Shown: positions 13,422-19,111, counted from the stretch's first letter. The stretch is DNA of 49,005 nt from Halonatronum saccharophilum DSM 13868 (GCF_000517025.1 NZ_KI912092.1:39619-88623), one strand, 5' to 3'. Program-made: numbers and translations. The notes: a model not told the origin generated them from the sequence alone.

Positions 13422-13445
13422 AAATGATGGCCTAGGCCATCATTT
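13422..13445 (-). terminator. palindromic terminator overlapping the barrel-gene stop
   Basis: Perfect 24-nt palindrome (AAATGATGGCCT / AGGCCATCATTT) that includes the first bases of the stop codon region of the gene at 13444-14175; T-rich sequence follows on the minus strand. Confidence 0.75.
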
Positions 13446-14175
13446 AAAATCTAGTCTCAACACCGAAGAATAAACCCTCTGTGCTTCTATTGATATTTGT
13501 TAAATCTGTTAAAGTGGTTCCATTAACCTCGATGGGAATACTAGAAAAACTTGTACTTTGTATAGAACCTTGGCTTTTTCTATAACCGATGTTGGCCCTT
13601 AAATCATCAGCAACCCTAAAGGAGAGACCAGCCTGCAAAGAATAACTTTCATCACCTCTAAAATTCCCTAAATCACCTACTTCTATATTAGGAGAAGAGA
13701 TATTATAATCATTTAATAGACCATACTTATAATTTGCAAATAAGCCAATATGCCTTGTCAAGTTATGTTCAACCTCTCCAATTAAGTTAACACTTTGCTC
13801 TTGAATATCAAATAAACCTTGTCCAAATATATCAGTAGAAAATAGAGATTGATTAACTCCAGCCCCTAAACTCAACTTACTCCTATCATTTTCAATAAAA
13901 TTCCTTATCAAAGACAAGTCAGTATTCTTTAAGTCAGAATTTATATACCCCCTATTATCACCAAAGGCATAGCTTCCTTGCAAAGTAAATCCTTTATTTA
14001 GATTTACCCTACCATTCACCTCTCTAAGACCTAAATCGCCTTCTAAACCACCACTGAGATTTTGTTGAGAGTTAAAGTAATTAAAACCCATTCCAAAACG
14101 ATCTCCTGCATAAAGATTAGTAGAACCTACTAAAACCATTATTACTGTCAAAATTACTGCCCATCTTGCTTTCAT
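13444..14175 (-). CDS. secreted beta-barrel-like protein, unknown function
   Basis: A 243-aa protein with a signal peptide (MKARWAVILTVIMVLVGSTN, cleavage after LYA). The mature part is built of short alternating strands and turns with repeated aromatic/glycine patterns (GFTLQGSYAFGDNRGY, GLFANYKYGLL, LRANIGYR) and ends in F (FFGVETRF), a typical C-terminal strand of outer-membrane beta-barrels. No catalytic motif seen. It supports an outer membrane in this organism. A single-gene unit with its own terminator. Confidence 0.75.
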   Translation of the reverse strand: MKARWAVILTVIMVLVGSTNLYAGDRFGMGFNYFNSQQNLSGGLEGDLGLREVNGRVNLNKGFTLQGSYAFGDNRGYINSDLKNTDLSLIRNFIENDRSKLSLGAGVNQSLFSTDIFGQGLFDIQEQSVNLIGEVEHNLTRHIGLFANYKYGLLNDYNISSPNIEVGDLGNFRGDESYSLQAGLSFRVADDLRANIGYRKSQGSIQSTSFSSIPIEVNGTTLTDLTNINRSTEGLFFGVETRF

Positions 14176-14356: not shown

Positions 14357-14839
14357 TTATACCGATATAAATTCCTCTGCAAAACTCTTGATATTCTCTT
14401 CATTAATCTCAGACTTGCTCTCATTTACCTTTGCCATCATCTTGATAACCAACTTAAATAGGAAGTTCATCTTCTTAAAATCATACTCATAACCAAAATA
14501 GCCCTTTGCATCTACTTTATCCACTAATTCATCTTCAAAAACGGTTACTAACTGCTCATCTGCCCTCTCTACATCTCCACAACAGAGAAATAATCCTAGT
14601 CTCTTCTCTAATAAGGCACCCATATTCTCTTCACAGAACTTCTTAACCCGCCTTTGAATATTTCCTGCGTAGATTGAACCACCAATAGCTACAGCTTCAT
14701 AATCATCTAAGTTCAAACTCTTTAAATCGTCCTTCTTCAGATTAAATAACTGAGCATCTTCTCCTATAAATTCCGCCAACCTCTTTGCTGCCTTCTCTGT
14801 AGCACCATACCTCGTTCCATAAGCAATTAATGTTTTCAT
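14357..14839 (-). CDS. flavodoxin-domain protein (HemG/protoporphyrinogen-oxidase-like)
   Basis: A 160-aa single-domain flavodoxin. The FMN phosphate loop is TRYGATE at about 9-15, GGSIYAGNIQRRVKKF near 54-69 is the second flavin loop, and LFLCCGD near 84-90 the third. The order and loops resemble the menaquinone-dependent HemG group, but no haem genes are nearby; in this setting an electron carrier is more likely. It is the last gene of the TetR-led cassette, 44 nt after the secreted-protein gene. Confidence 0.8.
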   Translation of the reverse strand: MKTLIAYGTRYGATEKAAKRLAEFIGEDAQLFNLKKDDLKSLNLDDYEAVAIGGSIYAGNIQRRVKKFCEENMGALLEKRLGLFLCCGDVERADEQLVTVFEDELVDKVDAKGYFGYEYDFKKMNFLFKLVIKMMAKVNESKSEINEENIKSFAEEFISV

Positions 14840-14883
14840 CTATATTCCTCCTTTTATTATTAGTGCTAGTAAGGAAATAATCT

Positions 14884-16038
14884 TCATTCTTTTATCTCCC
14901 ACTTTGAGTTCATTGTAACTTGGTCACCTTCTAAGTTGATTCTCGCAGTCCAGTTATAAGGCTTGGGCCAATCCTTGAAGAAGTCTGAACCAAAGAAGTA
15001 TATGAACCTAAGCTCCCATTTGCTTATCTTAGGCTTCCATCCACCACTAGGATTAATCTCTATTAATACTTCTTCTCCAACTCTATCTATCTGGTAGTCA
15101 CCACTTATACTCCCTGCTTTCTCTCTACTTGTTGATACAAGAAACTTACCGCTTATGATAACCCCGTCCTTTAAGGCTATTATATCTGGTATAGCAGGTG
15201 AAAAATCAATCCTTAACTGGTGTTCTCCTTGGCTAATACTCATTCCTTCAATCTCATAATAGCCGTTATTCTCTCTAATACTATAACGAACATCCTCATC
15301 CCAAACCTCTCCATCAGTCCTTGGCCCTAAAGGTGATAATGACCCTTCATAATCCGCATTCCATTCTACTAAAAAAGGATCTGATGAGTAACGTGTAAAG
15401 TAACACCTTGACCAATCCAAAAAGAAAGGAAGATTTTCAACCTCTTGCTTCTTTCCAGCAATCTTTATTATACTTTCTGTCCCTGCACGCCTGACAAAAT
15501 AAAAATCATATAAGAAGTAAAGTGGCAAATAAGAAGGGTTTTCTGAGCTTCCCCCTACCGGGGCCAACAAATCAAATGGTTTAATAACTTTATCACCCTT
15601 CTCTTTTATCCTTGCCTCAACCTCTCTTCCCTTCTTATCTTCAAAAGAAAAGTAAAGGTCAACTCCCTTTGAATTAATCTCAAATTTAAAGTCTTCCATA
15701 TCTCTCTCCAAAAAATTAGCCAATCCCTTGCCAGCAACATCAAGGTTGTCCACAGAAAGCATACTAGGCTGTTGATAAACATCAACAAAGCCATCATTAC
15801 GCCAAGCTATTATCCTCAACTTACCATCTATTATCTGAGGTTCAAGGCCTGAATAGATTTGATCTGACCCTTCTTCGAAATTTATTAATAACAGCTTATC
15901 CATAGAGCTAAACTCTAAGTTAAAGGGAGAAAAGATAACTCCACTAGGCTCTTTATCATAAATACTTTGGCCCGCTTTAACTTTAGCTGAGAATATAAAC
16001 ATTAAAAGCAATATAATTAAAAATGATACTCTATTCAT
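14884..16038 (-). CDS. secreted protein of unknown family in a flavin-linked cassette
   Basis: A 384-aa protein with a Sec signal peptide (MNRVSFLIILLLMFIFSAKV, cleavage after VKA). The mature part is rich in beta-strand and aromatic residues (NPSYLPLYFLYDFYFVRR, FFLDWSRCYFTRYSSDPFLV), has no membrane segment beyond the signal, and resembles a two-part lipocalin-like fold in its rhythm. I do not recognise the family and assign no activity. It stands between an FMN-lipoprotein gene and a flavodoxin gene (gaps 64 and 44 nt), so a role outside the membrane linked to flavin electron transfer is a guess from context. Confidence 0.7.
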   Translation of the reverse strand: MNRVSFLIILLLMFIFSAKVKAGQSIYDKEPSGVIFSPFNLEFSSMDKLLLINFEEGSDQIYSGLEPQIIDGKLRIIAWRNDGFVDVYQQPSMLSVDNLDVAGKGLANFLERDMEDFKFEINSKGVDLYFSFEDKKGREVEARIKEKGDKVIKPFDLLAPVGGSSENPSYLPLYFLYDFYFVRRAGTESIIKIAGKKQEVENLPFFLDWSRCYFTRYSSDPFLVEWNADYEGSLSPLGPRTDGEVWDEDVRYSIRENNGYYEIEGMSISQGEHQLRIDFSPAIPDIIALKDGVIISGKFLVSTSREKAGSISGDYQIDRVGEEVLIEINPSGGWKPKISKWELRFIYFFGSDFFKDWPKPYNWTARINLEGDQVTMNSKWEIKE

Positions 16039-16102
16039 CCATATTACCCCTTTACTATTCTAGATTATTAATCTACATTTAAAATAATCTCTCCATTAGA
16101 TA

Positions 16103-16501
16103 TTACTTCTCGACTATTCCATTTCTAAGAGAATTTTCAGTTGCTTTTAATATAGTCTTACTGCTTATTGTAGCTCCACTAATTACATCAACTTCTACTG
16201 TCTGCTCTGCTAAAACATCTTCAGTAATTGCTTCTGCCTTACTTCCTCTCCAATTCTCATGACTTAAAATCTCAACATCCTCAATTTGATGGTCTCTAAC
16301 TTCTACTGCTACTACTACCACTACTTCTCCAGCAGTATGCTCACCTTTATATCTCCCATCCTGCACCTGACTTAAATCAACATCTTCAATGTGGGTATCT
16401 GCTAAAATCCCTTCTACATCTACATCTATACAGCCAACTAAAAGACCAGCCAACATAATTCCCATTAATAAAATAAATCCTTTTTTTCTGATTTTTGTCA
16501 T
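16103..16501 (-). CDS. FMN-binding-domain lipoprotein
   Basis: A 132-aa protein. The N-terminus is a lipoprotein signal with lipobox LVGC (C24). The rest is one FMN-binding domain as in RnfG/NqrC: YKGEHTAGEVVVVVAVEV, then the flavinylation motif SGATISSK near 110-117, where the threonine would carry FMN through a phosphoester bond. It should be a membrane-anchored extracytoplasmic electron carrier. No ApbE flavin transferase gene is seen in this window, so one elsewhere is needed. Part of the TetR-led cassette. Confidence 0.88.
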   Translation of the reverse strand: MTKIRKKGFILLMGIMLAGLLVGCIDVDVEGILADTHIEDVDLSQVQDGRYKGEHTAGEVVVVVAVEVRDHQIEDVEILSHENWRGSKAEAITEDVLAEQTVEVDVISGATISSKTILKATENSLRNGIVEK

Positions 16502-16547
16502 AATTTATCTCTCCTTTTTGTTTTTATTTCCTAACTTTATCTAACTC

Positions 16548-17369
16548 TCAATAAACATCTTTGACTGATTTCATACTCTTTAATAAATAAACTAAAAAGA
16601 AAGTACCTCCTACCCAAATCAAAAGATAAAAAGGCATCAAAGGATCTAAGCCTTCCGAAATAGAAGTGAATACCATAGCGATTAAAGCCAATCCATAAGT
16701 ACTCATTTTAAATAACATAATAGCTGATAATATAAAACCCCATGCGTTAGCCTTTAATAATAAAACTGCACTTAATATCATAGTCGGTAAGAGTATTGAT
16801 AAGTCAATAGCAAAAATTATACTAGTTCGCCATTCATAATTAATAATATGCTCAGGCAACTGCCCAGTACTAATAAAGTTAATTATTTGAATAAAATTTA
16901 CAACAATTAATGATCCAGCAATAAAAAACATAAAACCACCTATCCATTTAACAGGTAGATTCTCATTAAATCTTTGGCTAATTTCTTGAACATCAACCTT
17001 TATTAAAGCAAAAATAATAGCATAAATTGATGCTGAAACTAATACTACATAAAGTAAGAAAAAGTTGTTAAATGCACAGGCAAATAAATAAAACATATAA
17101 TTATAAAACATATAAAACAAACTACTTAACCAAAGTAACTGTCCTTTATATGAGCCTTTCATTGTAAAAAAAAGTGCCCCTATCATTAAAGGAATCACAA
17201 CCACCAATGTTACTAGATCATTACCCAAGCCAACACTTTGACTGTAGGCATTATCTTGATAGAGATCTTCCATAAAAATTCCACCTACTGATGTTATAAT
17301 CGCCAAGACAATAATAATAATAGATAAAATAAAAGAAACCTTAAATTTACTTTTTAACATGTTATCCAC
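16548..17369 (-). CDS. polytopic membrane protein, unknown family
   Basis: A 273-aa protein with seven or eight hydrophobic segments spread over its length (for example near 10-30, 52-68, 75-112, 143-168, 186-206, 210-232 and 243-263). No recognised signature. The start is GTG with a G-run 10 nt upstream. It lies directly after the TetR gene (38 nt) and before the FMN-lipoprotein gene (46 nt), so it may hand electrons to, or move something for, the lipoprotein; that is inference from position only. Confidence 0.75.
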   Translation of the reverse strand: MDNMLKSKFKVSFILSIIIIVLAIITSVGGIFMEDLYQDNAYSQSVGLGNDLVTLVVVIPLMIGALFFTMKGSYKGQLLWLSSLFYMFYNYMFYLFACAFNNFFLLYVVLVSASIYAIIFALIKVDVQEISQRFNENLPVKWIGGFMFFIAGSLIVVNFIQIINFISTGQLPEHIINYEWRTSIIFAIDLSILLPTMILSAVLLLKANAWGFILSAIMLFKMSTYGLALIAMVFTSISEGLDPLMPFYLLIWVGGTFFLVYLLKSMKSVKDVY

Positions 17370-17407
17370 CGTTCTATTTCCCCCTTATACATAATTTTTT
17401 TCATAAT

Positions 17408-17998
17408 TTAATTTTTTAGTAAATACTCAACCTCCCTTATTATCTTTTCTATCACATCTTCTCCTGTCATTTTAATACCTCTTCCTTTGATAAAGAATAA
17501 TAGATTTCCATGAATAGAGTTAGCTATTAACCCTAATAAAATATCTACCTCTTCTTTACTTATTCCCTTTTCTTTAGCATACTCTTCTAAATTTCTTGCT
17601 GATGATTTTACCACCTCTGGCAAATAATCTTCTGCTATAATCTCTTTTGGGGGAATACCCAAATCCTCAAGAAATAATAATTGATATATCTTAGGATTTT
17701 CAATAAAAAATTGTGCATATACCTTAGCTAAATTAATTGACTTCTCTTTTGGAGTACTGTACTTTTTCATCTCTTTTAATAACTCTTTTTTACAATCATC
17801 AAAAAAATCCACCACACAATAAAATAACAATTGGTTTAAATCTGTAAAATAATTATATAAGGTTCCTGGGGCATAACCTGCAAGATGAGCTACCTTCTTT
17901 ACGGTTAAATTTCCAACCCCTTCTTCTTTAACAATCTGCTTAGCCGCCTCAATGAAATACCCCCTCATCCGCTGCTGCTGAATTTCTTTTCTATCCAT
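17408..17998 (-). CDS. TetR-family transcriptional regulator
   Basis: A 196-aa regulator. The N-terminal helix-turn-helix is typical: RGYFIEAAKQIVKEEGVGNL, then VKKVAHLAGYAPGTLYNYF. The ligand domain is unassignable. The ATG at 17998 is chosen because AAGGAG is 9 nt upstream; reading further upstream would run into a repeat (18056-18188). It is the first gene of a cassette with membrane protein, FMN-lipoprotein, secreted protein and flavodoxin. A perfect 7-bp inverted repeat just after the likely start site (18205-18223) is a good candidate for autoregulation. Confidence 0.9.
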   Translation of the reverse strand: MDRKEIQQQRMRGYFIEAAKQIVKEEGVGNLTVKKVAHLAGYAPGTLYNYFTDLNQLLFYCVVDFFDDCKKELLKEMKKYSTPKEKSINLAKVYAQFFIENPKIYQLLFLEDLGIPPKEIIAEDYLPEVVKSSARNLEEYAKEKGISKEEVDILLGLIANSIHGNLLFFIKGRGIKMTGEDVIEKIIREVEYLLKN

Positions 17999-18055
17999 TG
18001 ATTCCATCTCCTTATCTTTACTAAGTAATTTATATGTTGGTTTGAAGTTGAATTG

Positions 18056-18188
18056 TATAGTAATATAGTTACAGTTGATAATTGTCAATTGATAATTGAT
18101 AGTTAAAACCTTAAAAACCAAAGTTCTTGTAAGGTTTTGACCTTAACTATCAATTATCAATTTGAAAAGTGCAACTTTATTACTATTA
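18056..18188. repeat. full-length composite repeat (ATTGATA word type) in the TetR leader
   Basis: Complete structure: TATAGTAATATAGTT end, array of ATAATTG/TCAATTG words, core TTAAAACCTTAAAAACC ... GTAAGGTTTTGACCTTAA, inverted array ACTATCAATTATCAATT, then GTGCAACTTTATTACTATTA. It lies between the promoter and the start of the TetR gene, so it must be transcribed as part of the leader. Confidence 0.85.
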
Positions 18189-18204
18189 AACCACATCATA
18201 AATC

Positions 18205-18223
18205 GCATTCACCTTTTGAATGC
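18205..18223. promoter_or_regulatory. candidate TetR operator
   Basis: Perfect inverted repeat GCATTCA-N5-TGAATGC placed a few bases after the expected transcription start of the promoter at 18237-18265. Size and position fit a TetR operator. Binding is inferred. Confidence 0.5.
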
Positions 18224-18236
18224 TGTTCATAATATA

Positions 18237-18265
18237 AATATACTTCATTAAACTTGTTTTGTCAA
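18237..18265 (-). promoter_or_regulatory. promoter of the TetR-flavin cassette
   Basis: Minus strand: -35 TTGACA (18265-18260), 17-nt spacer, -10 TATATT (18242-18237). Confidence 0.75.
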
Positions 18266-18290
18266 TACTTTCGGTAAAATATACCCAAAT

Positions 18291-18330
18291 AAATAGAGTA
18301 TGTTAACTTTAAAGTTAACATACTCTATTT
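18291..18330. terminator. 40-nt perfect palindromic terminator after the DUF368 gene
   Basis: Perfect inverted repeat centred at 18310/18311 with outer ends AAATAGAGTATG and CATACTCTATTT. It begins 8 nt after the stop of the DUF368 gene and insulates the TetR promoter. Confidence 0.85.
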
Positions 18331-18337
18331 AAAGATT

Positions 18338-19111
18338 TTAAATTTCTCCAAGTATCCTATTCTTATCCAATCTCCAAATAATAAATCCCCCAAGAACAAA
18401 GCCTATAATCTCTAATAATCCAAGGCTATCAGGAAGAACACTCCTCATAGAACCCAATATTAAACCTGTTAAGAAAGCCATTACTGGAGAATTATATCTA
18501 TTTAATAGATAGGAAAGGGTCCATGAAAAGATTAACAACCCAACTCCCACTCCAAAACCAAATACTAATAAGACAATTATATTCAATGTACTAATAGCCT
18601 CTAATACCCCTTGATAAAGACCTAGCATAATCAACAATGTTCCCCCACTAACTCCTGGAAGAATCATTGCTATACTCCCTATAGTTCCACCAAAGAAGAA
18701 TCGGGCCAAGGATATATCACTAGTTAAAACAACTGTATCTATATCAATTGAATAAAAATAAGTAAATATTAATCCTACTATAGCAAGGAAAATAGACTTG
18801 AAATTAAAATTTTCCACCTGATCTGCCGTTATCTTACTAGAAGCAAAGATAAGACCTAAAAGAAGGGCCAACATAAAACCCCTAAGATTACTCTCTAATA
18901 AACCAATAATCAATTTAGAGCTTACCCCTACCCCAATGACTGCACCGATACCAATAGGTATGAGCATTCTTAAATTAAGGTTTTTAATACTGTTTATCAA
19001 TCTCTCATAAATCCTTAAAATCAAAGCTACAGTACCCCCACTAACCCCAGGTAAGGTATTGGCCATACCAATAGGGATACCTTTAATTAAATACTCCCAA
19101 AATCCCTTCAT
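18338..19111 (-). CDS. DUF368 membrane protein (PopT-like undecaprenyl-phosphate translocase)
   Basis: A 257-aa polytopic protein with the DUF368 signature repeated in both halves: NTLPGVSGGTVALILRIYE near 18-36 and MILPGVSGGTLLIMLGLY near 147-164. This internal duplication is the inverted-repeat fold of the family. DUF368 proteins (PopT) have been shown to recycle the lipid carrier undecaprenyl phosphate across the cytoplasmic membrane for cell-wall synthesis. Length and motifs fit. AAAGGAGG precedes the ATG. Single-gene unit between repeats. Confidence 0.9.
   Translation of the reverse strand: MKGFWEYLIKGIPIGMANTLPGVSGGTVALILRIYERLINSIKNLNLRMLIPIGIGAVIGVGVSSKLIIGLLESNLRGFMLALLLGLIFASSKITADQVENFNFKSIFLAIVGLIFTYFYSIDIDTVVLTSDISLARFFFGGTIGSIAMILPGVSGGTLLIMLGLYQGVLEAISTLNIIVLLVFGFGVGVGLLIFSWTLSYLLNRYNSPVMAFLTGLILGSMRSVLPDSLGLLEIIGFVLGGFIIWRLDKNRILGEI

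Follow-up and report, generated by a model that had tools for sequence, protein, structure and literature searches.

A composite TetR-associated membrane-flavin gene cluster of Halonatronum saccharophilum with two undescribed protein families

A gene cluster in Halonatronum saccharophilum DSM 13868 is made up of two modules, each of which recurs elsewhere apart from the other, one of an undescribed membrane protein (MEM) and a HemG-like flavodoxin (FLD), the other of an FMN_bind lipoprotein (FMNB) and an undescribed all-beta protein (SEC). The cluster is located in the window analysed, a stretch of 49,005 nucleotides (GCF_000517025.1, NZ_KI912092.1:39619-88623), and its five genes follow the order TetR-MEM-FMNB-SEC-FLD (Table 1), the gene content and modularity being established. 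We favour, tentatively and with slightly less than even confidence, the interpretation that this is a TetR-controlled membrane-flavin cassette in which FMNB-SEC has been inserted into a TetR-MEM-FLD core, and that its products act on a lipophilic compound in the way proposed below. The cluster is of moderate interest, chiefly for the MEM-flavodoxin pair common to Bacillota and haloarchaea.

An earlier reading of the window alone (the sequence-only reading) had placed the membrane protein and the flavodoxin in one cassette, and their linkage is upheld by its recurrence in four further Bacillota genomes, with the gene orders TetR-MEM-FLD (L099), TetR-FLD-MEM (L102), TetR-MEM-DUF6544-FLD (L109) and FLD-EFR1-MEM (L105), and on haloarchaeal plasmids. 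In 4/4 cases the genome's top Flavodoxin_5 match is the MEM-linked one. These are four of the 32 other Bacillota genomes with MEM; with about 2.3 Flavodoxin_5 genes per genome the chance of adjacency is below 1% for each, and the binomial probability of about 2e-5 is a rough one that assumes some 3000 genes per genome and independence. On haloarchaeal megaplasmids MEM has the flavodoxin gene immediately upstream of it in Halorussus limi, Haloplanus sp. GX21, Salarchaeum sp. JOR-1 and Halostella pelagica, with a 4-nt overlap of the two genes in all but the first of these, and hemG adjoins MEM in Haloterrigena salifodinae and is found three genes off in H. turkmenica. Other MEM loci have the orders TetR-MEM-DUF6544 (L110) and TetR-MEM (L098), and the window TetR matches the TetR subfamily adjoining MEM elsewhere (1.8e-15).

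FLD belongs to the Flavodoxin_5 family (PF12724) with 89.9 bits over residues 4–144, the gathering score being 27 bits. It matches the NCBIfam equivalog model of HemG (NF008316, menaquinone-dependent protoporphyrinogen IX dehydrogenase) and retains the flavodoxin P-loop, but its score of 38.1 bits (1.3e-9) is below the cut-off of 142 bits and places it outside that family; it has no adjoining heme genes and is linked to an undescribed membrane protein. HemG works with menaquinone in heme synthesis. The haloarchaeal MEM-linked flavodoxins come closer to the model, one passing the HemG cut-off with 147.7 bits (L134) and another reaching 133.5 bits (L133). MEM and the HemG-like flavodoxin could constitute an unnamed two-gene membrane redox module common to Bacillota and haloarchaea that takes varied accessory inserts (DUF6544, or FMNB with SEC), the window copy having moved one insert outside the cytoplasm; this broader proposal is a doubtful one. 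The recurrence of the HemG-like partner in both groups makes an interaction test straightforward.

Several other genes are found around MEM. On the haloarchaeal megaplasmids with the HemG-like flavodoxin and MEM (L131–L135, L141), the surroundings of the pair often include CPBP proteases, an MFS transporter and a polymer-forming cytoskeletal protein. A DUF6544/DUF6920 protein is encoded in four MEM loci (L109, L110, L029 and L106), once between MEM and the flavodoxin, and no mention of DUF6544, DUF6920 or the EFR1 ferrodoxin was found in the literature searched. In one genus (L034, L035, L037) a short MEM subtype has as neighbours an AAC(3)-like gene and two FMN-reductase-like genes of the flavodoxin fold, identified by eye only.

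The second module, FMNB-SEC, is also present in a Clostridiales metagenome-assembled genome (L044), where the FMN_bind protein is encoded just upstream of SEC and is 42% identical to the window FMNB. FMNB scores 39.7 bits against FMN_bind (PF04205, cut-off 22) and has the lipobox LLVG↓C and the motif DVISGATISSK, in which SGATISS can be read. The genome has a single ApbE match (PF02424, 1.5e-94), located on another contig, and with the SGAT-x-S motif this makes flavinylation of FMNB feasible. In its single FMN_bind domain with SGATxS, its lipoprotein nature and the one ApbE in the genome, FMNB resembles the ApbE-flavinylated FMN_bind systems (Rnf/Nqr, extracellular electron transfer and flavin reductases; PMC8238504, PMC11334425), but apbE is outside the cluster, the cluster lacks a partner of the cytochrome, DUF4405, Rnf/Nqr or reductase type, and flavinylation of FMNB is putative.

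The membrane protein and the 384-residue secreted protein had both been described as lacking a known family, and this holds for Pfam, NCBIfam and PDB sequences, whether each is searched alone or as an aligned family; the two families without a Pfam or NCBIfam entry here gain a testable context. MEM has 273 residues, a GTG start and about eight transmembrane helices by hydropathy, in agreement with the seven to eight helices first counted, and a weak internal repeat (P 0.017). Residues G30, D51 and D189 are invariant in an alignment of 26 members, in which no column is conserved for His or Cys; MEM therefore has no ligand set for heme or Fe-S clusters, and lacking a conserved heme-ligating His in its helices it differs from the DUF4405/MsrQ-like cytochromes known from flavinylation systems (PMC11334425) and is not one of them. 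Structure prediction and search had been recommended for both proteins. AlphaFold2 on the single MEM sequence gave a predicted local distance difference test (pLDDT) score of 53 and no usable fold, and for SEC, with 21 sequences, a confident fold of two all-beta domains (pLDDT 88, predicted template modelling score 0.84), for which the search returned no significant PDB match. No internal repeat was found in SEC.

The SEC gene has an ATG start with AAAGGGG upstream and adjoins the gene of the lipobox-bearing FMNB. A hydrophobic N-terminus, or signal peptide, is present in the window SEC only and is missing from the other 20 of the 21 aligned members; since the signal sequence occurs in one of 21 members and a good ribosome site precedes it, export looks like a local innovation. 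In structure comparison with VIA-align the first matches are AttH (2ich, Z 6.5 over 133 residues at 6.1 Å), kievitone hydratase (7a0t, Z 5.8) and acetoacetate decarboxylases (Z 5.4), all three groups aligning on the N domain only and with Z-scores of about 6 that are within the stated noise range of the tool and not convincing alone. AttH and kievitone hydratase have the CrtC fold, in which isoprenoids are bound in a cavity. CrtI/CrtD-family FAD desaturases are encoded within two genes of SEC in two lineages, namely Clostridia (L039/L040) and Halanaerobiaceae (L027/L051). As two CrtC-fold proteins (PF07143 + PF17186, two lipocalin-like barrels) head the list for a protein predicted to have two beta domains, and the SEC relatives adjoin carotenoid-type desaturases, a CrtC-like fold is plausible for SEC.

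The surroundings of SEC overlap with those of MEM. Partner families common to the loci of both are the CPBP protease, the CubicO-type hydrolase, a 130-aa membrane protein, a MarR-like regulator and the flavodoxin. SEC has an EFR1 flavodoxin-ferredoxin nearby in L040 and a Flavodoxin_5 gene in L024. EFR1 (NF038196) occurs in that one SEC locus and in one MEM locus (L105), adjoining TetR or flavodoxin genes, but the window flavodoxin has no ferredoxin domain. A CrtI/CrtD-like FAD desaturase is repeatedly located near SEC (L024, L026, L027 and L039), together with a CubicO-type hydrolase and a CPBP protease in Halanaerobiaceae. Profile comparisons of SEC with acetoacetate decarboxylase, DUF2071 (for which the frame chosen may be wrong) and DUF6544 showed nothing.

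In the favoured interpretation, the core would consist of TetR, the eight-helix MEM and the HemG-like FLD, and the insert of a flavinylated FMNB and a double-barrel SEC, probably a ligand-binding protein of the CrtC/AttH fold. A lipophilic compound would release TetR from a palindrome over the start site. MEM may then handle this compound, or a quinone, in the membrane, with FLD as its cytoplasmic two-electron flavin partner by analogy to HemG and menaquinone. FMNB would be flavinylated by the single genomic ApbE and, with SEC and its gained signal peptide, might form an arm outside the cytoplasm, where the compound would be bound and modified by redox chemistry at the outer face. If true, this would be a case of a cytoplasmic protein family relocated outside the cytoplasm beside a flavin lipoprotein.

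Besides the low Z-scores, a number of results weigh against this interpretation. Foldseek finds nothing in the PDB at E<=0.001 for SEC, and the profile match between SEC and CrtC falls short of significance and weakens as the profile is filled out; one CrtC sequence (L112) gave a profile score of 27 against a null maximum of 22, a hint only, which vanished with larger CrtC profiles. The CrtC homologues show the catalytic motif WxDxxW, whereas in the 21 SEC members the segment aligned with it contains no conserved pair of W residues. We equate this motif, by inference, with D268 among the catalytic residues D268, W283 and W285 of RgCrtC (PMC12402844). Since the profile hint fades and the motif is missing, SEC was not filed under CrtC, and none of the 21 members (0/21) matches Pfam CrtC (PF07143) or Lipocalin_9 (PF17186). 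The distribution is also unfavourable. SEC is found in 5/59 and MEM in 10/59 genomes of the class, the own genome counted, and only in the own genome are they found together. A contig common to G034 and SLSL01000268.1 (Halanaerobiaceae) suggests that this class is Halanaerobiia. No other genome searched of the same order has SEC or MEM. About 28 of the 32 Bacillota MEM genomes have no Flavodoxin_5 neighbour. Conservation of the neighbourhood in relatives had been named as a check, and here the five-gene order is found nowhere outside the window, the same order of bacteria included, and the two sub-modules MEM-FLD and FMNB-SEC do recur elsewhere.

More widely, 23 named loci from Clostridia and Bacilli contain SEC, which is absent from viral contigs and plasmids, and MEM is found in 33/398 Bacillota genomes and on haloarchaeal plasmids. 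One genome (G355) has three SEC paralogues (L090–L092), one of them split by a frameshift. A MEM match in a metagenome-assembled genome of the class (L031, G003:C64) is on a GC-rich contig of 4.6 kb with a transposase-like gene, probably haloarchaeal contamination, and is not countable for the class.

TetR/MarR regulators adjoining MEM in many loci, the loose accessory pool of neighbours (CubicO hydrolases, alpha/beta hydrolases, CPBP proteases, ABC transporters), the patchy distribution and the plasmid location in haloarchaea would also suit a chemical-stress or detoxification cassette with no quinone link, where TetR senses a toxic hydrophobic compound that MEM exports or sequesters, FLD and FMNB reduce and SEC binds. 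MEM, however, resembles no Pfam or NCBIfam transporter family, and the HemG identity of the haloarchaeal partner indicates quinone-linked chemistry, so that this explanation is unlikely. That the operon is one of convenience, with independent accessory genes under one promoter and recurring neighbours that reflect a common mobile accessory pool, would fit the unconserved five-gene order, the highly variable neighbourhoods of SEC and MEM and the many MEM genes without a flavodoxin neighbour; it is rather improbable, as MEM and FLD adjoin each other in bacteria and archaea alike, with gene overlap in haloarchaea, to an extent beyond chance, and the FMNB-SEC pair recurs too. The electron chain of the sequence-only reading, in which cytoplasmic flavodoxin would pass electrons via the membrane protein to the FMN lipoprotein and the secreted protein would be the terminal reductase or acceptor, is the least probable. 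In its favour, known systems have FMN_bind lipoproteins that, with ApbE, supply extracytoplasmic reductases with electrons (PMC8238504, PMC11334425), and FLD and FMNB share one operon. Against it, a path through MEM has no sequence basis, since MEM, in contrast to cytochromes of the DUF4405/MsrQ type, has no conserved His or Cys; SEC shows no redox cofactor site that can be recognised and has 20 aligned relatives without signal peptide; and FLD and FMNB are together in no other locus among those seen. Such a linear path is possible as a special case of the favoured composite cassette, one to which the sequences of MEM and SEC lend no support.

The features of the cluster are listed in Table 1. 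The computed coordinates agree with the five same-strand genes and the gaps of 38–64 nt reported from the sequence, the intergenic distances being 38, 46, 64 and 44 nt, and the TetR, FMN-lipoprotein and flavodoxin assignments are upheld by Pfam. TetR scores 33.1 bits against TetR_N (PF00440, cut-off 24) and likely starts at 17998, with AAGGAG 9 nt upstream, but a longer open reading frame with a TTG start is also possible.

Table 1. Coordinates of the cluster and its control region, counted from the first letter of the window.
Feature	Position	Strand	Basis
FLD, HemG-like short flavodoxin (Flavodoxin_5)	14357..14839	-	Pfam 2.6e-25
SEC, undescribed two-domain all-beta protein, 384 aa, N-terminal signal sequence	14884..16038	-	AlphaFold2, 21-member alignment
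FMNB, single-domain FMN_bind lipoprotein, flavinylation-type motif SGATISS	16103..16501	-	Pfam FMN_bind 8e-10
MEM, undescribed membrane protein, ~8 transmembrane helices	16548..17369	-	no Pfam/NCBIfam/PDB match
TetR-family regulator, 196 aa	17408..17998	-	Pfam TetR_N 4.8e-8
Dispersed MITE-like hairpin repeat in 5' leader	18085..18178	-	BLAST against own genome; inverted arms
Candidate TetR operator GCATTCA-N5-TGAATGC, just downstream of -10	18205..18223	strand-neutral	exact 7-bp palindrome
Sigma-70-like promoter TTGACA-N17-TATATT	18237..18265	-	consensus scan, 11/12 matches, top of region
Perfect 21-bp inverted repeat, upstream operon border	18290..18331	strand-neutral	arms 100% complementary

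The consensus promoter and the palindrome noted earlier are both present as described, the latter with exact arms and the spacer AAAGG, and control by TetR is supported, with binding to the candidate operator predicted. The operator is unique, with no second copy at 0–1 mismatches in the 2.88-Mb genome; at three mismatches there are 57 copies against 39 for a reversed-pattern control, and such close counts indicate that the palindrome is local and defines no regulon. The leader between operator and tetR is about 200 nt long, and a hairpin repeat resembling a miniature inverted-repeat transposable element (MITE) is inserted there. This repeat has 56 BLAST matches in the own genome, in both orientations, the best others being 83–89% identical, and with dozens of such matches the leader is not a dedicated regulatory one. 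Rfam has no match in the cassette region and PADLOC gives marginal matches at chance level only. The GC content of the cassette is 32.8% against 34.1% for the window, a base composition that does not point to recent transfer.

Just upstream of the cassette an undecaprenyl-phosphate translocase-like protein (VCA0040-like, 6.9e-47) is encoded at 18338–19111, its gene stopping before the 21-bp inverted repeat, which is probably its terminator. Downstream, positions 13444–14175 encode an outer-membrane beta-barrel protein (OMP_b-brl, 7.1e-7), which fits a diderm envelope.

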